Source of the DNA: Schizochytrium sp. TIO01
Taxonomy: Eukaryota > Sar > Bigyra > Thraustochytrida > Thraustochytriidae
Length of the DNA: 64,000 bases
Direction of reading: 5' to 3'
NCBI GenBank assembly: GCA_004764695.1
Contig: SMSO01000014.1
Coordinates: forward strand, 6,872,029 to 6,936,028
The notes below the pieces were generated by a model. That model made no database searches. It saw nothing but the letters and a program-made list of their open reading frames with translations, and had not been told where the DNA came from. Position 1 is the stretch's first letter; every line of letters starts with the position of its first letter. Positions 11,169-64,000 of this stretch are shown one piece after another. A program made the translations under genes and the position numbers.

Positions 11169-12537
11169 TTGTAATGAATAGAGACAATATTGCGTACTAT
11201 TGTCAAGTAAAAGTCTTTGTTAGAGCAAAATCCTTGAGCACATTAATACAATTATGTTAAATACAAGTTCCTTTAATGTTATTGGAAACAAAAACATTTG
11301 CTTGCATTTGTCTATAAAAATGTTCTAAAATAGCAGGATAGTGTACAAAACGTCGAACGTCTACAGATTCGTCAACTTAATTCAGGCATAGGTGAAATTG
11401 TGAGAAAAATTATCTGGAAAATTCCCAAGCATTTATTTGCTATCATTTGTACCTTGTCAAAAATTCATCGCTAGCACCATCTCGTACCATTGATATTATT
11501 TCAGGGAACCCTAATTCTGAATTTATATCGAGATTAGTGGAGCAAAAGTTGAGAACAAGAAGATAATTTGTCCCATTACTTACCCTTGAATGTTTTCAGT
11601 TTCATTATACGAAATTACTGAAATATTAATCTTGTAGCTATCCATCAACAATTATATTTGCCTTGTACATCAGAGATTTAATATCATATTATGTTAATGC
11701 CCAATGCCATATGCCATGAAGTGAAACAAATTAACTGTTGACCTAAGAAATGCTGGGAAGCATTTTCGAATTATTCATATGATAGGATAGGAAGGTGATT
11801 GAAATCCAAAAGTGCAGAATTTGATTATGCAACCTTGTATACTACTGCCTTTAGCAATAACGACTCTTTTTATCACGAATAGTCTAACAAAATTTGCTAC
11901 CAAAAGCTTCCTTACCCCTTATCCCCATAGCTTCGAGCTTCTCCATCTCTTGATCTTGAGGCTAGATTTTACTAGCTAGTGTCTCATAACGTTTGAATAA
12001 CTGTTTGTTATTAGCGGTTCAAATTCTCAAGAGGGTACACACCCATATCTCCTTCAACGGATATATCTCCTATTTTCCAAGGATTAAAAATAACACTTGT
12101 TGTGATGATAACTTTTTCTTTTTTTTTAAGGAGCTAAAAGAAGACAGATGGCTCCATTTTGCTCCTGTTTGTTCTTAAGCGAAAACTGTTTATTCAAGCT
12201 GGTGCCTTGCTCTGCACGAATCAACACTGTTCGCGAAACTCATCGAATTGGCCCTTTCTTTAATAGTATAATTCATTATACCCCGTAGCGAGAGTCTTCA
12301 GCGTTTTTAAAATTGAAACTTGCTACTAGGTAGCTTTAACTTTGAATGTAATTTGGAATATATTGCTATGTGATCTGTGGCATTGCGTAATTAGGTCGTT
12401 TATAGCAAACAGTGCAAGTTGCAGCTTTAAAGAAAAAGCGACGACACTACGAAGCAAAAAAAATAGCAAAGCAATACAGCCTTGTACGAAGGCTTATTGC
12501 GCGTGCTTGGTGCTTTCGCACGAGCTCACGAAGAAAG
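11169..12537. other. spacer before kinesin gene
   Basis: AT-rich, no domain seen. From about 12412 the kinesin frame is already open and encodes a basic stretch (KKKRRHYEAKK...), but without an ATG. This could be 5' UTR or a missed upstream exon preceded by an AG acceptor (TTGCAG near 12419-12424). Confidence 0.4.
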
Positions 12538-14721
12538 ATGAGCTCGCAGGGCTCGAGGGCGAGCTCGCGCAGTAGTTTATCTAGCAAAGCGACGATTGAA
12601 TCAGCACGAAGCCGGCAATCCTCTGCAAGTACATACAGTGACAATGTGCGAGTGATTGTACGATGCAGACCGCTCAGTGAAAACGAAGCATCGCGCGGAG
12701 AGGACGAAGTTGTCCATGTAGATGGAGATGATACAGTGAGGCTCGTCCTTGGAGCACTTGGTGCAACGCGAAGCCAGAAAAAGTATCGATTCAACGCAGT
12801 TATGGGCCCAGCATGCTCTCAGAACGATTTTTTTGAAGCTTCTGGAGTCAAAGCTCTTCTAGAATCTGCCTTGGATGGATATGCTGCAACTGTCTTTGCA
12901 TATGGTCAGACAGGGTCTGGTAAGACTTATAGTATGAGTGGCTACGAAGAGCAAATTGCTAATGATTCTTATGTAGCAGACACGCAAGCAGATGGTCTCA
13001 TTCCACGTTCGATGAACTATATATTTCACAGAATTAAAGGCATGGATTGCTCATATCGACTTAAGGCATCATATTGCGAAATCTACAATGAGCAGGTTTT
13101 TGATTTACTCAATTTGACATCGACTAGCTTGCCCGTTAGATGGAAGCCCGGAAAAGGCTTCTTTGTACAAGATCTTTTTGTAGTAGAATGCCAGAGTCTT
13201 GAAGATGTGATGGAAGTAGTCTGTGAAGGACATCGGAATCGGCGTGTTGGCTCGCATGAGATGAACAAAGACTCTAGCCGCAGTCATAGTATTTTAACTC
13301 TTTATATCGAGTCAGAGACAACGGATCCAGAGGACGGCCATGCTGTTGTAAAGTTCGGTAAAATTGTGTTTTGTGACCTTGCAGGAAGTGAGCGTCTTAA
13401 GGACACCAAGTCAGCAGGTTTAACTTTGACAGAGACCGGTGCCATCAACAAATCCTTATTTGCGCTCAGTAATGTAATTGCCGCACTGTCGTCACCTGGT
13501 GCGTCTTCAAACTATGCTGTCTCAAGCCCGAATGCCACACATATTCCATATCGCGACTCGAAACTGACCAAGTTATTGATGGATTCTTTGGGAGGATCAA
13601 GTCTTACTCTTATGATTTGTTGTTGTTCTCCGGCAGCTACATATGCTGAGGAAACACTTAGCACTCTTCAATATGCGCATCGAGCATCAAAGATTAAAAA
13701 CAAGCCAACAATTCACCTTGATGGTAAAGAACAGCTCATTGCTCGCTTAAGGGAGGAAATCAAGCTCCTAAAACTTGAAAACGCATACTTAAGAGAGCAA
13801 GTAGCTGGGAACACAACAATTGTGTCAGCTTCATCACTACCTATGTCACCTCTTTTTCCTGGAGGGCCAGAAACCTCCACAGATCGACTGCTGAATTCCG
13901 AGTCTGCTCTACCCCAAATTGGCAGATCTAGCTCGCAAACGGAACATGAAAGCTCACATCTAGTTCCACCTGGGCTGAATATACCTTTTGGCAATTCAAT
14001 GCCCCCGTCGGGACCATCCTCACCTTCACGGAGTGGAAAGACATCACCTAAAAAAGCATCTCTCATGCAGCGTCATCAGCAGGCTCAAATTCAGGCTCAG
14101 CAAACCTACAATCAGTCCCCCGTTTCAATTAGTGCAACTACTTCAAACCATGCAATGTTGCAACAGCTACAACAGCAACAAGGCAATATTGATCAAATGA
14201 TTGTTGGTTTCCAGCGAGAGATCCAACGCTTGAAGTCCGAAAATCGTGAGATTCGCACGAGAGAGTTCACCTCTGATCGAAATTATCAAAATGCCATGCT
14301 AGAGAATGAGCGCCTAACGCAAAAGCTCGAGCACCTTGAGGAGGTATTTGTACATGATTCTAACTTGCCGATGGCAAGAAACGAGAGAGATCAACTTTAT
14401 ACAGCAAATGCACGTTTACAGCAGCAGGTGGAACATCTCAAGCGGCTCGTAAACGACGCTAACAGCAATCGGAGTGAAGATGCCGAGCCTTTACGTTCTG
14501 AGAACAATTATTTACGGAAGGTGATTGCTGACATGAAGCATCGTGAGTTGGCACTACAAGCTGATCTTCAAAGAATGTCAAAGCAGTCACAAATCTCATC
14601 GCGAATTCTACCTAACCAGCAGCAAGTACTGCAGCCACAAGGGATCCAACAACAGTTTATTGATGAGCGTCTTGATGAAGGTGTTGAACACAAGAACTCC
14701 GATAACTTCCTATTCAACTAG
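12538..14721 (+). CDS. kinesin, N-terminal motor, KIF12-like (tentative)
   Basis: 727 aa from the first in-frame ATG; the frame is open a further 42 codons upstream through GTG only. After a Ser/Arg-rich leader the motor runs about 36-390: VRVIVRCRP (nucleotide base pocket), P-loop GQTGSGKT at 123-130, switch I NKDSSRSH at 243-250, switch II DLAGSE at 280-285, and YRDSKLTKLL of the microtubule-binding face. All ATPase motifs are intact. A neck-like coil follows (LREEIKLLKLENAYLREQV), then a Ser/Pro- and Gln-rich linker, then coiled coils with QREIQRLKSENREI and NERLTQKLEHLEEVF. The neck style recalls kinesin-12/KIF12; the subfamily needs a tree. It should be a plus-end microtubule motor. Its stop is 359 bases from that of the K+ channel gene on the other strand. 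Confidence 0.93.
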   Translation: MSSQGSRASSRSSLSSKATIESARSRQSSASTYSDNVRVIVRCRPLSENEASRGEDEVVHVDGDDTVRLVLGALGATRSQKKYRFNAVMGPACSQNDFFEASGVKALLESALDGYAATVFAYGQTGSGKTYSMSGYEEQIANDSYVADTQADGLIPRSMNYIFHRIKGMDCSYRLKASYCEIYNEQVFDLLNLTSTSLPVRWKPGKGFFVQDLFVVECQSLEDVMEVVCEGHRNRRVGSHEMNKDSSRSHSILTLYIESETTDPEDGHAVVKFGKIVFCDLAGSERLKDTKSAGLTLTETGAINKSLFALSNVIAALSSPGASSNYAVSSPNATHIPYRDSKLTKLLMDSLGGSSLTLMICCCSPAATYAEETLSTLQYAHRASKIKNKPTIHLDGKEQLIARLREEIKLLKLENAYLREQVAGNTTIVSASSLPMSPLFPGGPETSTDRLLNSESALPQIGRSSSQTEHESSHLVPPGLNIPFGNSMPPSGPSSPSRSGKTSPKKASLMQRHQQAQIQAQQTYNQSPVSISATTSNHAMLQQLQQQQGNIDQMIVGFQREIQRLKSENREIRTREFTSDRNYQNAMLENERLTQKLEHLEEVFVHDSNLPMARNERDQLYTANARLQQQVEHLKRLVNDANSNRSEDAEPLRSENNYLRKVIADMKHRELALQADLQRMSKQSQISSRILPNQQQVLQPQGIQQQFIDERLDEGVEHKNSDNFLFN

Positions 14722-30908: not shown

Positions 30909-33083
30909 GTCGACATTTGTGGATACTGTGGAAGCCCACGATTCGACTAATGTTGGGCTCGCTGGTTCACTGAATCGGCGATAACGAGGACTAGCGGACT
31001 TCTTTGCTGTTTGTGACGGAAGAGGCGGGCAGATTCGCACGACTGCTACTTTCAGGTGTGGCCATTGCAGAAGACCTTCTATCCGTGTCAACTTCACTGG
31101 CAGTCAGAACTAGTTCCGTAGGTACAGAAAAATAAAAGGTTATCGTGAACTATCGAGGCTCTCCAACACTCCAATTAAACCAGAGTCAGTAGCTGTTTGA
31201 GGCCACAAGCAAAAGACCAGAGTTTGTATGATAACTGACTTGTCAAACAAATGTTTACTGCATGACGTCTCCTCTGCTTGAAGATTAATTACAAATATTG
31301 ATGAGCCTAAAGCAGGCCTGTCTTCAGAATAGCTTCAAAAACTTCGTGATCAAGCTAAATGGGATAAATAAAGACTTTCTGTCCAAGCTGTTCGAATGAA
31401 GTACACGGGTGAGAGAGAAGTGCCAGCTAGTTTTCTAGATCTACTGTGACCGACAGAATCCGATTTGTTTTATGTAGGAGTTGGCTGCAGAAGCAATTCC
31501 AGCTCGTCTTTCGCTCTTCGTCTCGGTCTCTCGATCTGATACACGTGCGTAGTTTCGAGCCCTTGAAAGCCTCAGCGATAGGTAGGTATGCGCTCCAAGT
31601 ATGCTAGTAGAACTGTTTCCCCTGTGGCTGACTATGTACTGGCAGTAACGTTGCTGCTCATGCGATTAGGTGTTGCGGAATAAGCTTACAACTGATGGAT
31701 TTGATTGAAACTTGGTTGATTAACTCAAGTGTCTTCTTTTCTATCCATTTGACTACCATGGTAGTATTAGTAGCTACGTAGCTAGTACATACCAAAATCA
31801 TTACGGCAGGAAATGTTCTTTGAAAGACGCAAGAGATAGAAATAGGCCTACTATTACAGGTAGTACCTACCAAGTAGTACTAGTACGCAGCGTACTCATT
31901 ATAAAGTTTTTCAAGTTATCGTCCATCCTGGTATCCTTCGAGGGTGCTCGTTCTGTCCTGTTAGTAAAGATCGACACCAAAAGAGCACGGGTTCAACATT
32001 ACAGACGATTCCTCGAATGTAACATTGAAGATCTGAAATTATTTGTTTTCGATAGGCACGTATTTGGTAAAACTGTATTTTTATCTGACTTTTTTTTTTG
32101 CATTATCTTAACCATGCATGGCACGTGCTCGGGTCTTTCACTCCCTTTGATTTTAAGCCTTCGCATAGTGCTGGGATCCATTTAACAGCATAAGTCTATT
32201 ATAAAAGCAACATCGTTACGGAAAGCCTCCAAGGAAACTGAAGATTAAACGTGAAGCAGATTGCGCTCTAAGAAGAATCACTAGTTGGACGTTAGTTATG
32301 GAATTGAGATATGCGATTTGTGCAAGTAGCAAGATATTAAGCGTCCTCGCCTCAAGCCTTTTTTCGGAATCATCTAGGTAGGCAGGTACTACCTCGTACC
32401 ACAAGTAGATATACATAGATGATATAATCCCTCCATTGAGACGACACTCTCGCTATTCCTTGATGATTTTCTTTGGGTAATAACTCAATGAAAAACCTGT
32501 TCGTACCATCTGGAACGATTCTAAGATCACATTATGTGGCAGGTAGACACAAAATACGAAAAGGGACAAACATCCTCAAAAGTCGCTTACAATAGCCTCA
32601 AACCAGCTTTGTGGCCCTTCATATAGCTTTCTTTAGTCAATGATCTTTGTGTTGCCAATGAGCTGCGTTTCTCCCATTTTAATTGAAATATTCTACGAGT
32701 GAAATATTACCTATCTACATAAGCTTTTATTTGAAGTAGAGTTCTAAGAGATGTAACTAAAACTACTTACCTACCTGAATTGTATACTAGGATAAATACT
32801 AAGTCTTTCATTAGCCAGAAAAGTAAAACAAGAAGAAGTCCTACCGGATCAATCAGAATGTGATTGCAGACAATCATAAGATCAATACTAACGGGAAGAC
32901 TCTTGTACTGCGCAATTCATTAAACAACAACTTGTTCTTGTCTTTCTCGTAGTGGAGACAATAGCGTGCAGAGGCCAAATCTTACGCGACAGCTAGATAT
33001 CATAGATGCAACACGTGTTCAGAAGTCTCTAAACCAGCGAGCTGCGTGGAGTGGCTACGCAACGCGCACACCAGCAATATACA
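30909..33083. other. spacer with possible 5' end of the phosphatase gene
   Basis: The first 190 bases probably contain the upstream start of the PP2C gene (-). The rest is AT-rich spacer with several TACCTACC/GGTAGGTA clusters and nested GTAC/TAGT hairpins near 31860-31900 and 32375-32400. No gene seen. The kinesin frame starts at 33051 through GTG; the first ATG is at 33084. Confidence 0.45.
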
Positions 33084-35261
33084 ATGATTCGAGCTATTGT
33101 GCGTGTTCGAGGAGGTAAGGGCAACTCCATTCAAGATAATCTGGCAAGTGAATCAAATTTAACTGCGAAACCATCCTCCTTGTCCACAGCTGAGTTTGAT
33201 GATGAAGCAAAACGAGAAAGAACGAAGAAAGGAAGATCAAATGTTTCTTCGGTAGATGAAAAGTCTAATAATTTCGAAGATGAACCCCAAGAGGCCTTTT
33301 TACAAATGATGGACGAAACAAAGATACGCATTCATACAGACGACCACGACCAATCAAGTCGTGAATTTGAATTTACACGATGTTTTGGTTCAGAGGTGAC
33401 ACAAGATGAATTTTACAAGGATTCTGGAGTGGAAGACCTCATCAATCACGCCCTTTCCGGTTATGCAGCCACACTTTTTACATATGGAGCGACTGGTTCT
33501 GGCAAAACATACACAACATTTGGATGCGAGGGTGTTGAGGGGTGTTTCGGTAATGCGGTACGAACTATTTTTCAACTCTTGGATACCTCAGAGTTCCAAG
33601 GGACATCCGTGAAAATGAGCAGCGTAGAAATCTACAATGATCGTTTGCAGGACCTTCTTACACAAAATACAAAACTAAATAGTACTCAAATACCAGGCTT
33701 AAAGTGGAGTGCCCGTGAACAAGGATTCGTTCTCAAAAATGTAAGAGCCATCAATGTGGATAACTGTGCTAGAGGTCTTGCGTGTCTACGTAAAACAATG
33801 CGACGCCGGCAGGTATCTGCTCACGCTCTCAATGACCGTTCCTCAAGAAGCCACTGCATTACAATTTTATTTTTAGAAAACCAAGTCACAGGGAAATACG
33901 GCAAAATTATGTTCTGCGATTTAGCTGGCTCAGAACGGATCAAGCGAACAGATTCTCAAAATGCAAAAGAATCTGGTGGTCTCAATAAGAGTTTATTTAC
34001 CTTAAGCAAAGTCGTTCGCGCACTAGACAATAAGAATGGCCCAAAGCCTCCATATCGCGATTCAGCATTAACCAAGTTGCTTTGTTCATCGCTTGGAGGC
34101 TGCAGTATGTGCATGATGATCGCGTGTGTATCACCACAGACAAATTGCCTCTCGGAATCCATGAGAACATTGCGTTTTGCAGCGCGAACTATGCGGATTA
34201 AGAATACACCTATCATTTTTCGAAGCAAGCACGATCGCCTTGTTGAGAAACTTCGTACGCAAATACGAGAGCTCACAGTTGAGAATGAAGTTCTTCGACA
34301 GCGTGTAGAGGAGCTCTGTACGACATCTGACATGACCCGTATACAGCAGGATCTGTTAGGCCAAGACCGAGATGAAGCCCAACAGCTTCCACTAATGTCA
34401 AGACCGGCCGTAGCATCCTCAAAAGATAGCTTATTTGGCAGGAGAAGTAATTTAGAATTTGAGCTATTGAGCATCTCGGAACGCGGGAATGGGATGATGA
34501 ACGAGGTTTCCAGCAACCTCAATATCGATGCTTCAACATCAAGCCAAAGCAAGGCAGACATTGTTGTACCAACGGTTGCTTCTTCTGATTCCGACTTTCA
34601 GGAGACAGTTCCTGAAGTGGATGAAGACAATAAATACGAGGATGACTTTGATACATGCTATGACCAAGCTATGGCAGTGGATCTGGACAAAAAGAAGGAA
34701 ACACAGACTTGCAGTATTGAGCGAGCCAATCTGTACGATCAGAGCAGCTTTCAGACTTCATTGAATGATGCCCAAGAGTTCAATAATATGATAAGTCAGG
34801 GACTCTCTCCAGAACCCATCGGCACAACAATTTTGGGAACTGGATTATCTCACTCCACGCAGAATAACTTCAGTTATTTCTCATCTCAAGCAGGTACGAT
34901 GCCAGACTTAATATCTCAACAGCAAAACTTCCAGGAAGGCCTTTTCCAAGCGCTTTTTACACATGACCATGAGCCTTTGGCACAAGAGATTAAGCATAGA
35001 CCAGCATTCGCAGGCGTATATAACAACCCCTTGCCCGTACCTCGGGCCCCAAGCATACTCAAGAAAGGCACGAAATCAGCTTCTCCCCGGATACGCAAAT
35101 TGAGCGCCCAACGGCATACGAAAGGCAAAACCAAAAAAACGGCGAGTCGTCTTCGTGTCCGAGCGTTGCGAGATGAGGTCGAATCAAAACAAGTGCAGCA
35201 AGTGGTGTCTAATTGGATTACTCACCATCGAACAAGGTATTCAAATGACTTTGTTTTCTGA
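33084..35261 (+). CDS. divergent kinesin motor protein
   Basis: 725 aa from the first in-frame ATG. The motor occupies about 1-385. P-loop GATGSGKT at 135-142, switch I NDRSSRSH at 250-257, switch II DLAGSE at 279-284 and YRDSALTKLL are intact. Two things are odd. The first strand reads RVRGGKGN where kinesins have RxRP, the motif that contacts the adenine. Also, about 60 acidic and polar residues sit between this strand and the next. A neck coil follows (KLRTQIRELTVENEVLRQRVEEL), then a long polar region without strong coiled coil, and a basic C-terminus (KGKTKKTASRLRVRALRDEV). The neck resembles that of the kinesin at 12538-14721, so the two may be paralogues of the KIF12-like group (tentative). 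AATAAA lies about 80 bases after the stop. Confidence 0.92.
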   Translation: MIRAIVRVRGGKGNSIQDNLASESNLTAKPSSLSTAEFDDEAKRERTKKGRSNVSSVDEKSNNFEDEPQEAFLQMMDETKIRIHTDDHDQSSREFEFTRCFGSEVTQDEFYKDSGVEDLINHALSGYAATLFTYGATGSGKTYTTFGCEGVEGCFGNAVRTIFQLLDTSEFQGTSVKMSSVEIYNDRLQDLLTQNTKLNSTQIPGLKWSAREQGFVLKNVRAINVDNCARGLACLRKTMRRRQVSAHALNDRSSRSHCITILFLENQVTGKYGKIMFCDLAGSERIKRTDSQNAKESGGLNKSLFTLSKVVRALDNKNGPKPPYRDSALTKLLCSSLGGCSMCMMIACVSPQTNCLSESMRTLRFAARTMRIKNTPIIFRSKHDRLVEKLRTQIRELTVENEVLRQRVEELCTTSDMTRIQQDLLGQDRDEAQQLPLMSRPAVASSKDSLFGRRSNLEFELLSISERGNGMMNEVSSNLNIDASTSSQSKADIVVPTVASSDSDFQETVPEVDEDNKYEDDFDTCYDQAMAVDLDKKKETQTCSIERANLYDQSSFQTSLNDAQEFNNMISQGLSPEPIGTTILGTGLSHSTQNNFSYFSSQAGTMPDLISQQQNFQEGLFQALFTHDHEPLAQEIKHRPAFAGVYNNPLPVPRAPSILKKGTKSASPRIRKLSAQRHTKGKTKKTASRLRVRALRDEVESKQVQQVVSNWITHHRTRYSNDFVF

Positions 35262-44962: not shown

Positions 44963-46249
44963 ATAGGATCGCAGCGCTAAGCTGGATTGCCCATGTATGG
45001 TATAGTACGATTACATTTTTATGGCATCGCTTATCATTCATACAGTTTTTGATCTCTTGCATACGGCACACGAACAGAGGCCAATGCACCAAACTTTCAG
45101 CGCATAAAATACATGCATTGTCATCGTACGGTGCCGCTGGTTACATTTCTACTTAAATTGAAAGACATTTTGTTTTAAGATTCAGAAAGGATGCAAATTT
45201 GGACATCAAACAGAGAAATCGGTTTTGAAACTTGACTTAGAATGATATTCTGCTCTATAACTTAACAGTAAGCACATTTGGAGTAGAAACCGTTGAAGAG
45301 GTATTCCATGATTTCGAAAATGAGTCATAGATCATCCATCAACAATGTCACACTATGTGGTACCAGAACTTCAGAAGCATGGATGCATTAAGTGAGTTGT
45401 GGTTTTGGCTTGGGTTTTCGCCCAAGCTAAAATATTTCAAGGAACCGTCCTCTCACTAGTGAGAGTGATCAAATTCCCCTAATAGCTGTATATAATCCCT
45501 GTTGCTTTGCCAGGTCGATATTTGTCTATAAAAAACTGTTTTGCTATAATTTTTATGCAGCGAGTAAGCATTCGTGAAAGCATGCTGAGAGGTGTCACAG
45601 ATGAGCGTCATTTCTTACGCACGCGATGCCATGAATTTCTTATCTTTATTTATCATGAATTTTGTCCGTTTAAAAAAAGTCACAGTAAAAAGGAAGAGGC
45701 TATTTATATACAAGAAAGAAGAACAACAAAACGAAAATTAGGTCTATTTGAGACTATTCTGCTTGCAAACAGGCTGGACCTGTTTTAAAGTATATTAATC
45801 AACTCTACAGCTCGCCGTTCTCCACCCCAAATCATCATAAATTATCTCACTATGCTGCCGTGGGTACCTCTTCGAGTGAATAGCCTGTATATCTGAAAAC
45901 TTCAAGGAGTAGAAAATTTGAAAAAAACAGAATGAAAGGAGTTTATAGTAATCAGATAGTAGGTTTGTAGCACTCTCACTAGTCAGAGGTAAATGATTTA
46001 AAATCATTTAGCTTGGGTTAAAACTCATGCCAAAATAATCACTCACTTGCTGACAAGAGTCCCAGAGTCTTTGTTTTGCGCATATGGAGACGCTGCACCG
46101 GGATATAGAGACCTGCTTAATCGTTTCAAAACCTTCAAAGGGTGTTGCTCTGACGTTCCTAGCGGGATTTGGAGCTCTGTACCTTGTGCAAGACGTAGTT
46201 CTTGTAGAAACAGAGTACCCTAAGGAAAAGAAACAGGGACGAAACCAGA
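44963..46249. other. spacer
   Basis: AT-rich. A 69-codon ATG frame (46084-46293) with a possible membrane segment (GVALTFLAGFGALYLVQDVVLV) overlaps the start of the coiled-coil gene in another frame; it could be an upstream ORF. A 138-codon minus-strand frame lies over the same bases. Neither is supported by domains. Confidence 0.4.
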
Positions 46250-46978
46250 ATGGAGAGGCACGAGGACGACCGAACAGGAGCTGCAGATTCTGAAAGCTTA
46301 CCATGGAGCCCCTCTCGTCACCGGTTGCAAAAATCGAGATCTCTTCGCAGACTTGAACCGTCTCCGAGCTCTGGACGCGAGCTTGATTCGCGAACTGAGT
46401 TACACAATCAAGCATATTCAACAATTGAAACCCTTAAAAAACATATTCAGGAACTTCACAATCTTAGGGAACATATGGAGAGTAAGGAAGCTACAACAGT
46501 GCGGCAACTTCGTGCTCATATAAATGGCGATGCTGAAGCTCTTACGATTGATAATATGCAGAGGTCGCTGGCACGATATCACGCATCCTCAAACGAATCT
46601 CAGAACCAAGTTGCCACAGCCGGCTTACAGCGCGTTCTGGCTGCTGAGGTAGCCCGTGTCTTAGTGATAATGTCACGCGGGGCACCTGTAGGTCAAAATC
46701 CAGATGATGGCATGACTCTGAATGTACAACTTTCTGTACCAAAGCTTATTTCCGCTACTCTAGGGTTTTCACATTTGAATCAGGCCCTTCGAGACTCACG
46801 AATGAAGTGTAGCTGCCTAGAAAAAGATCTTGAAGATGCTCATCAAACAATTAGTTCACTGGAAGAAGAACGAGATATTCTTCACGATGTTCTTGCACGA
46901 TCGAGTGATAGTGAAGCCCTGCATCGCTATCATTTGATAAAGAATATGAATCTTGCCAACAACAAAGAGAAATCAAAT

Positions 46979-47010
<32 letters not shown>

Positions 47011-48481
47011 ACCGTCGGTAAAACAGCAAAGCCCCTCTGTTCATACATATTCTGTTGCCACAACCCAAACACCCTCAGACTTTTTACAGAACACTCGAAA
47101 AGATGATAGGAAAGCATCGCCTAAAGACATCCTTCTTGTAAGCGTGGGTGCTCAGACACGATGTACATTTTTTGACGGGCAACAAGGACCAACGATCACC
47201 GGAACGCCTAGCAAGCATGAAACCAGAAATACCGCATCACAAACCAAGCTGCACTTGAAACAACAGAGTAAGCAATGCCAAACCGAAGACAACACATCCA
47301 CGCTGGAGAACAACGAGACTTTGTCCCAAGGTGGACTCTTACGGGTTGCATGTGAAACTACTACGAGCATTAACAGGCGAGTACACTTTAATGAGGTTGT
47401 TAAAGAGGGAAAATGTCTACCTTGCGACACCTCTGAGAAAGCTATGCGGGCTAATTATGTCGGTCAATCGTGTGAAGCCATTGCGCAAACCGACAGAATA
47501 GAACACCAAAACAGCATTATGCAGACGGACGCACATGAGCTGACTGTCGCTCAAATAGGATATGCTTTGCTCATTCCTCAGCTAGACGCAACAACACAAA
47601 CAGAAACACATTTTACTGTATCAGATGCAACAGTGCAAACAGGTTCGCCTGCTCAGTCAAGTACGCTCGTACAAACAGATTCTGCTTGGGCGGATTTAGA
47701 AAGCAAATGTAAGCAACAGAACGAAGCCTTAGCTCTATTGGCTATTAAACACCAAGCTCAAACTACATCCATGGATGTTATGCTGAAATGCTCAGAAACG
47801 GAGAATACTGTACAACGCAAACAGATTAATGATTTAATGTCAGACTTAAAGCGTGGTGAGTCGAAGCTCGAGTCATTGAGCAACGCACTAAAAATTGCAG
47901 AAAGAAAATTAGTGAGTTTTACGGAAACAGAAAAGGCACTGTCACTCGCAATTTCAGATGCAACGCATAGCGAAGAACGAGTCAAAGGAGAGCTAGATCT
48001 GGCTCGAAAGGACATCGAAAATCTTCGCCTCGAAAGAGCGCGCTTGGAACACAATCTTGAAGACCAGGTTCACAAAGACAAGGTGTTAGAGGAGACTGTG
48101 GCATCACTGCGGGTTCAGCTCCGCGGTCTCATGAAAATCCCTCGAAGTACATCGTGTATATCTAGCACGGAAAGCTCAAATCAAGTTCAAGACTTGCTTC
48201 GCTCCGCGACTGAAGTGCTTAACGAGCGCCTTCAACTTCACCTTGAGCTCCTCTCCACAGCTACATCTACAAGTGCAGAGCAACCTGGGATGCTCCGAGT
48301 GCCCGATGCTCACTGGCCTCACTTACAGGCCCGAATCGAAACTCAGAATGAGACATTGAGGAGTTTGCAAAACCGTATTGCTAACTTATGGCCTCTTGAA
48401 AGCCTGGATCAATCTCAACTTTCCAGCACTCGTGATCAATTGACGAAAGTAAGAAAGGTGGAGGCAGAGACCGAGGGCTAA
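46250..48481 (+). CDS. coiled-coil protein with ten QT (LC8-site-like) motifs
   Basis: 743 aa, one exon, ATG with A at -3. Order: a basic Ser/Arg-rich N-terminus; a coiled coil about 55-95; an unrecognised region about 100-170; a second coil about 175-225; a polyglutamine run at 244-252; a disordered region about 260-510; and a third long coiled coil about 480-625 followed by a further helical tail. The disordered region carries QT at about 273, 302, 331, 344, 413, 425, 450, 463, 475 and 504, in contexts such as ATTQTP, IAQTDR, IMQTDA, TTQTET, TVQTGS and LVQTDS. Those match the [TVIM]QT[DE] core that binds dynein light chain LC8/DYNLL. A dimeric scaffold strung with LC8 is likely (inference). 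A link to centrosome, basal body or microtubules is plausible. No orthologue is recognised. Confidence 0.88.
46980..47003 (+). repeat. (CAG)n coding repeat
   Basis: Eight or so CAG units in frame, giving the polyglutamine stretch of the coiled-coil protein; prone to length change. Confidence 0.9.
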
Positions 48482-48589: not shown

Positions 48590-48901
48590 CTAGGTTGCAA
48601 TCGCCTTGATTTCCGCAAGTTTGTCCTTGTACCCCTGAATTGCCTTTTGTTCGTCTTCAAGGCGTCTTTGGAGGGCTGTGACTTCAGCGTCACGAGCGGT
48701 ATTTGCGTCTTCGAGTTTGGCATTCGTTTCTGGTGTGTGTTTACTAGGTCTGTAGAGTATCTGAGGCTGGGTAGCAGTAGCAAGCACATCTTTTCTCTCG
48801 TCACGCTCACTTTCTGCTTTACGAAGAGCTTTTTCAGTCTCTGCACGTGCCTTTTCAGAGACAAGGATGAGCTTGAGCAACGACTGCTTTGTGTACTCCA
48901 T
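48590..48901 (-). CDS. short coiled-coil protein
   Basis: 103 aa from an ATG whose context I cannot call strong. Two charged helical stretches, about 8-42 (LVSEKARAETEKALRKAES) and about 60-100 (NAKLEDANTARDAEVTALQRRLEDEQ), are joined by a Pro/Thr/Gln linker. Both have heptad-like hydrophobic spacing, so a small coiled-coil dimer or a hairpin is likely. I do not recognise the family. Its stop is only 108 bases from the stop of the LC8-site protein on the other strand, so the two 3' UTRs probably overlap. It could also be one exon of a longer gene, but upstream no continuation is seen. Confidence 0.6.
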   Translation of the reverse strand: MEYTKQSLLKLILVSEKARAETEKALRKAESERDERKDVLATATQPQILYRPSKHTPETNAKLEDANTARDAEVTALQRRLEDEQKAIQGYKDKLAEIKAIAT

Positions 48902-50489
48902 CTTGATTTTACTCTCGACTTGGGTCAGGTGAAGAACCTATACCTGTTTGCTTATGGAAGAGATTCGGGCACAAACAGGGAAGCGCCCTGTGCTGAAGCC
49001 TTGTGTTACTGTGATCCGAAGTATCTGCTCTGCAAATACGAGTTTGCCCAATAATGGACGTCGAGGTTGCTTTGTATTTTGTATTTTATTCCACTCTCCA
49101 CAGACCCTATATTCTACATTACTATCTAACAAGACCTAATCTAATCAACCGAGGTAACTACTTTGTTTGATTTGGACTTGTTTTCTGCTATCATGATTTG
49201 CGAGCTCCAAGCCGTCAGACAGCTTTTGCTGATTCTTGCAGCACAGCAACAACAAGTACGTATCCACGGAAAAGCCAGGTCGGGTTAGATCAAAAGTTTA
49301 GCACATATGAGAAAGCTATCTCTACCTTGGATTCTTGAGCAGTCCACAAATCATGCTCAGCCAAAAAAACAAAAAGCAGAATTAGTTAGGTTTTGATGTG
49401 ATTTATTATTATTATTATTATTACTAAATAGAGCAAATAGTGCCACAATTCCAATTATCCTGGGTAAAGTTCGAATTAGGACACCCTGATATACTTATTT
49501 ATTTATGTAGAGTGGCAGCTTTAATCAATCTGCTGTAGCATCTTTTATGTGTGGCTGTTTTGAATAAATTATAAAACAATCTATCTCGCCGTCGCTTTCT
49601 TTCCAGATCATGTATGCTCTCTTTTTGTTGTTCTTTTTTCGATTGACCAATCGATGATTAGCCCAGACTATTATTTAAATACCGGGGCCTTCAGACTTTT
49701 TTCATGCTTGGGAATTCCTTCAGACTCTCAAATGTTCTTTCTCCGAAGTGTGCGTAATAAACATCACTTTGACTTTCAGGCTTCAGGTTTTTCTTCTTTC
49801 CTCGACTCCTACCTATAACCTTCTTAGACACAAGTCCAGTAACTAATTAGGTAGTCATTGTAATAATAGATTAATAGAAGCTAACTAGCGTCAGCAGACA
49901 AATGAATAAACAAACAAATACAAAACCTTGAGCTGCGATCCTTGGGCTCTTGAGCTCGAGAGTCTTTTAGCATCGCGGTTCGAACTCATTGCAAGCTCTT
50001 TGGGGTGGGTTGCTCGACGTAGGGCCCCACTCTTTGCACGCAATCGATTCTGAAGGGTCTAGAGTGAAGACAACCGGACGTTTCTTTGCTCCCGTGGGGG
50101 GGTGAAGTTGGCTTAGTGCAGCGCCTCGTACTATTGCACACAAGGTTTCTTCTTTCGAGATTTACGTATTGTCTTCCCCTTGCTGAGTTGCCTGCGCTGC
50201 CAGGTCGTGCTGCGATCAGTATACTTGGCTTAGGCTACTGCTGTCACGTCCAGGTCTTGTCTCTTAGGATATTTTTACCAGTCTGGAAGTGTAGTCAAAT
50301 ATTTGTTCTTCAACCTAGCCTGTCTGGAAATCAGCAGAAATATTTGCAGATCAACCATATCAGGAACAAGTATTCAGAACTCACATTCTATCAGTTTCTA
50401 TCAAAACCTTAAATAAGAGCCGTGAATAAAATCACTTCGACCGGAGTTAATTGACATATTATTTCAGGTGAGCAAGGATTTAACAGAAA
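48902..50489. other. spacer with ATT repeat
   Basis: AT-rich; TTA/ATT repeat at about 49401-49423. A 108-codon frame (50086-50412) lacks a domain. Just before the ubiquilin start is TATTTCAGGTGAGC (about 50458-50471), which reads as an AG acceptor or a GTGAGC donor, so a spliced 5' UTR is possible. Confidence 0.4.
49401..49423. repeat. (ATT)n microsatellite
   Basis: Seven or so TTA units in spacer. Confidence 0.85.
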
Positions 50490-61218: not shown

Positions 61219-63444
61219 TCACCGTTTTCCTTGTGTTGCTGCGTATTCTACGTAAGATGGTAATGGCTGCAGCACCATCATAGCTTGAGCCTCCTGAATT
61301 GGGACGTCCGGGAAATAACCCTGATCGATACACATGCCCCGAAATTCAAGATACAAACTTCTAAGCACTAGCCGAGCTTCTTCTGCAGAGTCATTGTTGG
61401 CTTTCAATGGGGCCAAAACGCGTGCATCTTTTCCACTACGTAAAGTCTCCATAATCCCCTGACAAAGTGAGAGCTTGTCTACTTCATTTCCAAAAAAGGA
61501 AGCGCAAGAAATATCTTCAAAGCTCACCCAGTTGCTATCTTTCGATGCAACTTCGTTGCATACCTGGTTTCCTCTGGTTTCTGATGCCTGATCAGTCGGT
61601 GAGATAAAGTCCTCGGGATTCTCCTTCAAAATATCATCATCTAGCTTCTCCCTGATGCTCAATCTTGATTCAGAGGAGAGTGAATTGCCATATTGTGCTA
61701 TTGATTCAATATCGTCTAAATCAGCACCCTCGCATTCCTCTTCATTAAGCCTCGTCTCGTTTCGTTTTGATTCATTAATCTTCGTCTTATGAATAATACC
61801 ACTCTTACGACCGTTCTCGGCCCTGGATTTCGCTGGTAAGAGGAGCTCTTGAGAAGACTTATCAAATTCCGAGTCAACTTTTGACTGCTTTTGGTCATTA
61901 AACTGTTCCATAGCTAGATCTTGTTGCTGTTGCTGGCGCCGAGCCCGAAGCCGAAGTCGCGACAGCTCAGCAGCTTGACGAGCGATCCTGCGTCCAAGCT
62001 TCTCTAATTTAGAACGCTGCCTAGCCTCTCGAGCTTCCACGCGTCGTGCCTCTTCAGTGTCGATCCTCAATTTTTCAAGAGCGGTAAGCTTGTCAAAGCA
62101 TATCTCGCACACTTTGACTGTTTCGTACATCCGTGATTTCATCTTTTCAGGGAGTGCTTCTGCGAGCTGAGCCGAGTTATTGAGCCCAGTTCGATAAGAA
62201 AGAACTAATTTATAAACTAGAGCTCTCCGCTCTAATGGAGAAACTTGACGCAGTTGATCAAGCGACGCAGAAGAATGGACGTCGCCAATGCACCAGTTCA
62301 ACTGTTCACGAAGTTTTTCACTTTCTGACTTGTGCCCCTCCTGAGCTACCTGTCTCGTTTTAAGAGCAATTTGGCGAACTTTGGCTGAGGTATATGCCGA
62401 AGACAGTAATCGATAGCTTCGAATATCAGAAACAATCTCACGGACGACTTTGGCTCCGCTTGATCCTGCATATTCCTCAATTACAAGATGACCTTCGATG
62501 TCACTAATAGAGCAGTGCTTGGCAAGCTTTCGCGCACAGCGAGATCCCGCCAAACGCTGAAGTCTGCCAAAGCTTGCAGGGACAACGGCTTGTAGTAATA
62601 CAAGACCTGCCGGAGACTTTTCTGGAGCAGCAGAGAACATTTTGCAGAGTCTTTCAAGACACAGGACTAAGTCGTTTTTGGTGAGAACAAACTCATCTGG
62701 CGCTCCCATAGCCTCGAAGCTTCGTGCACGAACTAGAGGCGAATTTCCAAAGTGACCTAAACTTTGGATAATTGTTGCATAAAAAGGTGCAAGGTCCTTG
62801 ACTCCATGAAACTCTTCAGTTACCTCGCCAAAACAAACCCACCGAATAATGCGTTGCGACATGTCGAAAACTAATGTGGGAACAAACTCAACTTTGGCCT
62901 TCTGTATGGCACGTTGCAAACTACAATCCCGCCAAAATTGATATCCCTGCTTCACTTCGCATAAGGTATTGTGCTTCGAATTATCAGTATCTCCCGTTGC
63001 AAAATGTTTCTTTTGCCTTTCCACATGCACATCATCTCCTCTTGCTTTTGATGTTGAGATCGACTTAAGAGTTGCAACACGAGGTAACTTCCCAGGTTTG
63101 TAAGATGGCTTAGATTTTGTGAATGACTTTGATGATTTTTTCGATAGGTCTTGTGCTTGAATTCTAGTAGATCGCGTGTTAACCGGTTGATACCTTTCTG
63201 GGATCTTCAAGTACTTCGTCTCTACACGGTTCCCTTTATGAGTCCTCGTCTTTCCTGTGATGTTACGTAGCTTTGCCTCACGAAGTTCCATTTCAACTCG
63301 AATGTCCCGCTCCGGATCATATTCCAACGTGTTAAACCAATTCAAAAATGAGCTTTTGTTTATACAACGTCCAGCACCAGATTGTTGAGTGCATTTTGGT
63401 GACTCTTGACTCTTTTCAGTTGGTGAGTCGATTGAATCCGACAT
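61219..63444 (-). CDS. unrecognised 741-aa protein with coiled coil
   Basis: 741 aa from the first in-frame ATG (A at -3); the frame continues 19 codons upstream via TTG. The N-terminus is polar, then a short conserved-looking block about 35-90 (SFLNWFNTLEYDPERDIRVEMELREAKLRNI). A basic stretch about 100-140 is followed by a larger helical region about 190-430 (VLVFDMSQRIIRWVCFGEVTEEF, then ARSFEAMGAPDEFVLTKNDL). Around 450-460 is KVCEICFDKLTALEKLR, with a Cys pair, running into a strongly charged coiled coil (RRVEAREARQRSKLEKLGRRIARQAAEL) and a Gln run. A short VC..C....l..l..lR motif followed by coil is something I recall from protist flagellar proteins, but this is weak. The acidic C-terminus ends SYVEYAATQGKR. 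Clearly a gene; function unknown. Confidence 0.78.
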   Translation of the reverse strand: MSDSIDSPTEKSQESPKCTQQSGAGRCINKSSFLNWFNTLEYDPERDIRVEMELREAKLRNITGKTRTHKGNRVETKYLKIPERYQPVNTRSTRIQAQDLSKKSSKSFTKSKPSYKPGKLPRVATLKSISTSKARGDDVHVERQKKHFATGDTDNSKHNTLCEVKQGYQFWRDCSLQRAIQKAKVEFVPTLVFDMSQRIIRWVCFGEVTEEFHGVKDLAPFYATIIQSLGHFGNSPLVRARSFEAMGAPDEFVLTKNDLVLCLERLCKMFSAAPEKSPAGLVLLQAVVPASFGRLQRLAGSRCARKLAKHCSISDIEGHLVIEEYAGSSGAKVVREIVSDIRSYRLLSSAYTSAKVRQIALKTRQVAQEGHKSESEKLREQLNWCIGDVHSSASLDQLRQVSPLERRALVYKLVLSYRTGLNNSAQLAEALPEKMKSRMYETVKVCEICFDKLTALEKLRIDTEEARRVEAREARQRSKLEKLGRRIARQAAELSRLRLRARRQQQQQDLAMEQFNDQKQSKVDSEFDKSSQELLLPAKSRAENGRKSGIIHKTKINESKRNETRLNEEECEGADLDDIESIAQYGNSLSSESRLSIREKLDDDILKENPEDFISPTDQASETRGNQVCNEVASKDSNWVSFEDISCASFFGNEVDKLSLCQGIMETLRSGKDARVLAPLKANNDSAEEARLVLRSLYLEFRGMCIDQGYFPDVPIQEAQAMMVLQPLPSYVEYAATQGKR

Positions 63445-64000
63445 GTTAGGAACTGAACAGCTCGTAATATTTAAGAAGGTCAAAAGTAGATGCCTACTCA
63501 AGAGAGGAGGCGCAGAGAACCGTCCTCACAAGGTCGATGCTTGTATAGCTGGGACCGGAGAGAGCAGAGACAACACCCTGGCAAACTTTTCAGAGAAGGA
63601 ATGTAGTGTTGAGATCTGACACCCGTCCGTGCGTCCAGGATGCTAAATAACTATATCTCTTTTTCGTCAGACAAACCACCAAGAAGCTATTCTCACATTT
63701 TACGTACTCACAGAACATTGTAGTTCTTGCTTTGCAGTCCTCTGCGCAACCCATTTTGTATATATCCGTTGTAGCTGGAGTTGTCTTCCAATTCTGAGCG
63801 GTCCTCATATGTACCAAACTTGGTACTTGTACTACCCTAACCCTAGTTTTAAAGTTTCTTTGAAGGGGTATTATCAATAGCTAGGGTGGGTGATGAGTGG
63901 TGGAGAATTAATACTAAAAGTATCCTTACTGCCATAGTTTAGAGTGACGAGATCATCAACAAGAGCATATGATGAGTGGTGGATAGTTAAAACATATATA
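63445..64000. other. window end, spacer
   Basis: Should contain the promoter and 5' UTR of the 741-aa gene. The 13-base string GATGAGTGGTGGA occurs twice, near 63892 and 63972. No gene supported. Confidence 0.4.

Follow-up and report, generated by a model that had tools for sequence, protein, structure and literature searches.

A candidate multi-site LC8 client with a QT-rich disordered stretch between predicted coiled coils in Schizochytrium sp. TIO01

Exploring a 64,000-nucleotide stretch of DNA from Schizochytrium sp. TIO01 (the window), we found a gene whose product is probably a multi-site LC8 client, in which two chains joined by coiled coils would be held together along their disordered central stretch by several LC8 dimers, as judged from its sequence and a predicted structure. 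It is plausible that the protein itself is previously undescribed, but multi-site LC8 clients are known from animals, fungi and flagella. The open frame spans 46208-48481 on the forward strand, in which the earliest ATG in a favorable context (46250; A at -3, G at +4) begins an intron-free, single-exon ORF (46250-48481, +) encoding an orphan coiled-coil and disordered protein of 743 aa. The genome has intron-poor genes and encodes a PUFA synthase of the PfaA type whose modules are repeated, two features that suggest a thraustochytrid. A profile search with the protein yielded no Pfam match over cut-off; PPP1R21_C, ADIP, WTAP and SR_plectin were rejected, all being below their cut-offs and of a kind commonly seen with coiled coils. 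A PDB search revealed no relative, no paralogue was found in its own genome (64 Mb, 37 contigs) and no relatives were found in viral and prokaryote contig collections. These Pfam, PDB and own-genome results are consistent with the view of the preliminary description that the protein belongs to no described family. Upstream of the gene lie two oppositely oriented copies of a ~78-nt repeat (45390-45467 and 45971-46048), 76% complementary and partly palindromic. A ~75-nt piece of this repeat has at least about 40 dispersed copies in the genome, 75-86% identical and mostly alone, and might be a short mobile element or an RNA-level element. Directly downstream, a short convergent ORF (48590-48937, -) matches the pinin/SDK/memA region (E=8.5e-7), possibly just as a generic charged coiled coil. 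A 768-aa ORF at 61219-63525 (-) has no Pfam match, a basic N-terminal part and a central stretch rich in alternating charges.

The protein carries ten QT dipeptides within residues 273-505 (Q273, Q302, Q331, Q344, Q413, Q425, Q450, Q463, Q475 and Q504), spaced in order by 29, 29, 13, 69, 12, 25, 13, 12 and 29 residues, while an eleventh (Q199, HQTI) lies outside the array, within a helix. The structure was predicted by single-sequence AlphaFold2, and because the mean pLDDT was 48.6 only the coarse picture of the model was used. Residues 248-476 have mostly pLDDT 24-40, which predicts disorder, and show no 3.5-residue hydrophobic periodicity or heptad signal; the periodicity is significant in residues 44-97, 477-628 (including 517-628) and 688-742. 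Predicted helices or coiled coils, all on the forward strand, occupy residues 44-97 (46379-46540; pLDDT up to 85, periodicity p=0.0015), residues 165-247 directly N-terminal of the array (46742-46990; AlphaFold2, with periodicity marginal at 165-217, p=0.04) and, as a long third segment directly C-terminal of the array, residues 477-628 (47678-48133; periodicity p=0.001), followed by C-terminal helices at residues 641-673 and 688-742 (48170-48475; AlphaFold2 and periodicity). A poly-Q tract, (CAG)8, detected by Tandem Repeats Finder at 46979-47003 (+), marks the junction of the second coiled coil and the array. The preliminary description had placed the array between coiled coils, which agrees both with the single-sequence AlphaFold2 model and with the 3.5-residue periodicity of the flanks. 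It had also placed the QTs in a disordered stretch, and this holds for residues 248-476 but not for Q504, which falls inside the predicted C-terminal helix. A low-confidence predicted helix at residues 397-439 would bury Q413 and Q425.

Given that QT alone is weak evidence, we tested the flanks of the ten sites. For an LC8 matrix we used 30 LC8-binding peptides from the literature (tables of PMC6607443, table 2 of PMC5963919, a phage consensus and LCA5) and no peptide of the 743-aa protein; the matrix separated binders from tested non-binders only modestly (leave-one-out AUC 0.77). Scored by flanks only, with Q0 and T+1 omitted, the ten sites had a mean of -0.8, compared with -5.2 for positions drawn at random from that region (p=0.0009); they also outscored 69 QTs located elsewhere in the genome (p=0.001). 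Furthermore, at least five of the six positions of the LC8 consensus [DS]KX[TVI]Q[TV][DE] (PMC3078936) are matched at Q344, Q450 and Q475, i.e. at three sites where 0.06 are expected (0 of 20,000 shuffles). LC8 is reported to prefer P, D or E at +2 (PMC6607443), and one of these residues is found there in six of the ten sites (p=0.001); none of the ten has an internal proline (-5 to +1) or a hydrophobic residue at +2. Strict [TVI]QT anchors, present in four of the ten, are not enriched (p=0.17) and were rejected as proof of LC8 sites. Wider anchor classes adding A, C and M are enriched (p=0.0002) and were given little weight because they were chosen after the sites had been seen. Three anchors of the array are AQT, and a human AQT peptide (IRS1) failed to bind when tested (PMC6607443). 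The sites had been characterized initially as mostly [TVIMA]QT[DEPG], a pattern that fits six of them and misses the remaining four.

The highest matrix score was obtained for site 7, LDATTQTE (Q450, 47582-47605; 14.7, consensus 5/6), followed by the LC8-like sites 1, SVATTQTP (Q273, 47051-47074; 11.0), 4, QSKQCQTE (Q344, 47264-47287; 10.9, consensus 5/6), 8, SDATVQTG (Q463, 47621-47644; 10.0, consensus 4/6) and 9, SSTLVQTD (Q475, 47657-47680; 7.9, consensus 5/6), all ten sites being encoded by the forward strand. The scores then fall to 6.2, 6.1, 5.1, 3.3 and lower, comprising the weak sites 3, RNTASQTK (Q331, 47225-47248; 6.2), 2, VSVGAQTR (Q302, 47138-47161; 6.1), 5, CEAIAQTD (Q413, 47471-47494; 5.1) and 6, QNSIMQTD (Q425, 47507-47530; 3.3), and the doubtful site 10, IKHQAQTT (Q504, 47744-47767), which lies in the predicted helix 477-628 and has the poorest flank score. 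Just two sites score as high as roughly the lower quartile of true binders. Matrix scoring of each site, which the preliminary description had proposed as a check, thus favored Q450, Q273, Q344, Q463 and Q475 and left the others weak, suggesting four to five good LC8-like sites among these residues and four to five weak ones, with about five good and four weak as a reasonable estimate.

Such a distribution is also what one would expect of a client with only two to four genuine LC8 sites (Q344, Q450, Q463 and Q475), the rest being chance occurrences in a Q/T-rich disordered linker, so that no ladder would form. This lebercilin-like arrangement (lebercilin has two sites) is a weaker version of the multi-site explanation and overlaps with it, and we give it close to an even chance of being correct. 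It accounts for the drop in matrix score from the five leading sites to 6.2 and below, for strict anchors without enrichment and for the three to five QTs that composition alone yields. Against it, weak single ASCIZ motifs bind once their neighbors are filled (PMC5963919), and low scores therefore do not exclude binding.

The ten QT dipeptides reported in the preliminary description are indeed present, 12-69 residues apart and in excess over composition. Within the interval that it had singled out, 3.6 QTs are expected by composition and at least ten occurred in 73 of 100,000 shuffles (p=7e-4); with the poly-Q tract included, the excess is weaker (10 against 4.8 expected, p=0.011). Unlike QT, the dipeptides TQ, SQ, QS, ST, TT and QQ showed no significant excess in the QT region by the composition test. 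We screened 76 ORFs (34,246 aa), taken from the window and from twenty 10-kb samples of the same genome, and none of the other convincing ones exceeded 3 QT within any stretch of 244 residues; a 162-aa ORF with 7 QT reads as (CAAA)-rich and is probably non-coding DNA. It is nonetheless conceivable, if unlikely, that the QTs are functionless by-products of Q/T-rich composition and CAG/CAAA slippage, considering that poly-Q (CAG)8 adjoins the array and that CAAAC microsatellites are plentiful in the genome. However, the excess is restricted to QT, the flanks are non-random toward LC8 preference, and the array is encoded by five different codon pairs. Moreover, Tandem Repeats Finder detected no DNA repeat inside the array, only the (CAG)8 upstream of it, and a DNA repeat or slippage was therefore rejected as its origin. 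A genome-wide search for a CARAC triple pattern was swamped by CAAAC microsatellites and was uninformative, because the reversed-pattern control gave the same result. Four of the nine QT spacings are 12-13 residues (p=0.0004 for that bin; p=0.006 for any two-wide bin), leaving 4-5 residues between 8-mer motifs. A regular 12-13-residue ladder via an extra AQI site was rejected, as AQI at Q435 gives spacings of 10 and 15.

In the genome itself, eight Dynein_light matches over cut-off were found (loci L001-L008), one canonical and seven divergent, the latter probably including axonemal dynein light chains. All 89 residues of the canonical host LC8 align to LC8 of solved structures (E ~1e-52), and its groove segment FGSYVTHET is unchanged. 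The same genome encodes two homologues (loci L031 and L032) of RSP3, which has TQT-like motifs and is known to be an LC8 client (PMC12399478). One paralogue carries KDMDVQTE, TEVETQTD and VDAETQVE and the other MAMETQTD and VDVGTQIE, motifs that score 8-13 in the same LC8 matrix. As the RSP3 homologues carry such motifs, the organism appears, from these sequences, to use the canonical LC8 motif vocabulary including VQT and an acidic +2. In both paralogues the LC8-type motifs are N-terminal of the domain and their anchors differ (VQT/TQT/TQV in one, TQT/TQI in the other); the two sets perhaps serve different radial spokes, as in Tetrahymena. The window contains two kinesins, one at 12406-14718 (+) and one (PF00225) at 33033-35258 (+) whose tail has one good LC8-like motif, KKKETQTC (score 10.7). 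A search of the genome with the dynein IC2 family profile gave no match, and the control profiles likewise gave none.

The presence of eight LC8-family loci, together with the many anchors that stray from canonical LC8 (A, C or M at -1), would fit QTs that are ligands of a divergent LC8 paralogue or of another strand- or groove-binding domain. We regard this as a slim prospect: the best sites obey the rules for canonical LC8, which is itself nearly unchanged. The idea of an SQ/TQ cluster serving ATM/ATR-type kinases, suggested by the SQ/TQ dipeptide inside two TQT sites and one SQT, was ruled out and has next to no likelihood, the counts in the region being at or under expectation (TQ, 2 against 3.6 expected; SQ, 2 against 2.1 expected). 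With regard to the ten-site LC8 array originally proposed, the flanks, the consensus matches, the host LC8 and the RSP3 controls speak for it, but only about five of the ten sites score like binders and strict anchors are unenriched.

The clamping of paired beta strands by an LC8 dimer in its two grooves is an established mechanism. In the multi-site client that we favor, two chains would pair via the coiled coils on either side of the disordered stretch, and this pairing would set the QT strands of both chains side by side, so that one matching QT pair, in beta-strand form, could occupy the two grooves of each LC8 dimer. The likely strong sites would be Q344, Q273 and the closely set Q450, Q463 and Q475, which follow one another at 12-13 residues; avidity may help to fill the weaker QTs. 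The LC8 dimers would stack into a rod, forming a stiff and LC8-dependent link between the two coiled coils. What the sequence itself shows is the motif statistics, the disorder predicted between helices and a canonical LC8 in the genome, and from these we infer the dimerisation, the LC8 binding, the stiffening and the cellular role of the protein; its location at the basal body or on microtubules, as raised in the preliminary description, found no support. Dimeric LC8 takes up two strands running in parallel (PMC12017986), and coiled coils on both sides would suit it, as they would keep the chains in register. Four residues between motifs were reported to leave enough room for two LC8 dimers (PMC9481538). 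In ASCIZ, a 3-residue linker is stable yet may slip out of register, and homogeneous complexes are obtained with linkers of 6-9 residues; the 4-5-residue linkers of the close QT sites fall between these two classes.

Lebercilin (LCA5) resembles the 743-aa protein in having a VQT anchor and in the setting of its LC8 motifs, which lie in a disordered stretch with coiled coils on either side, the motifs of lebercilin being 4 residues apart (PMC9481538). It differs in having two sites only and in belonging to the Pfam Lebercilin family (PF15619), a domain that is absent from the 743-aa protein and weakly matched at a different locus of the genome. Nup159, which binds Dyn2/LC8, likewise has a QT array (about five) beside a coiled coil, and this array forms a stiff beads-on-a-string rod with LC8 (PMC12017986). 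The 743-aa protein, whose translation shows neither FG repeats nor a Pfam nucleoporin match as expected of Nup159/Nup214, differs also in the uneven strength and spacing of its sites. ASCIZ/ATMIN has 7 sites in fly and 11 in human (PMC5963919, PMC10046861), so that ten sites are no record. As in our protein, a disordered region carries many QT sites, weak and strong mixed, with linkers both short and long (PMC5963919, PMC10046861). Taken singly, ASCIZ peptides bind with a Kd of 7-20 uM, one being too weak to measure, and the seven-site domain takes up seven LC8 dimers per two chains (PMC5963919). Unlike the 743-aa protein, ASCIZ is a zinc-finger transcription factor that is a monomer when unbound, whereas our protein has coiled coils and no zinc fingers. 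Outside the taxonomic group in which they occur, most known LC8 motifs are not conserved (PMC5746249), and a conservation comparison therefore needs close relatives. RSP3 has several TQT-like LC8 motifs in common with the 743-aa protein (anchors V/TQT and TQ[VI] in the same genome) and is a separate family, since the Radial_spoke_3 domain (PF06098) is found at the two RSP3 loci and is absent from the 743-aa protein. Swallow, with an LC8 motif beside a coiled coil, and Chica/FAM83D, with several LC8 motifs, are alike in function, as taken from literature descriptions alone.

Well-studied many-site LC8 scaffolds are chiefly animal, fungal or axonemal. It is doubtful that the protein forms the fullest version of such a scaffold, i.e. 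a ladder of five to nine canonical LC8 dimers between two coiled-coil rods, acting as a stiff strut outside the axoneme and having arisen independently of Nup159, ASCIZ and Chica. If the multi-site reading is true, the protein would be tractable, its graded weak and strong sites allowing one to ask how stiffness depends on the strength and the spacing of the motifs, and a non-axonemal scaffold in a stramenopile would suggest repeated evolution of LC8 ladders.
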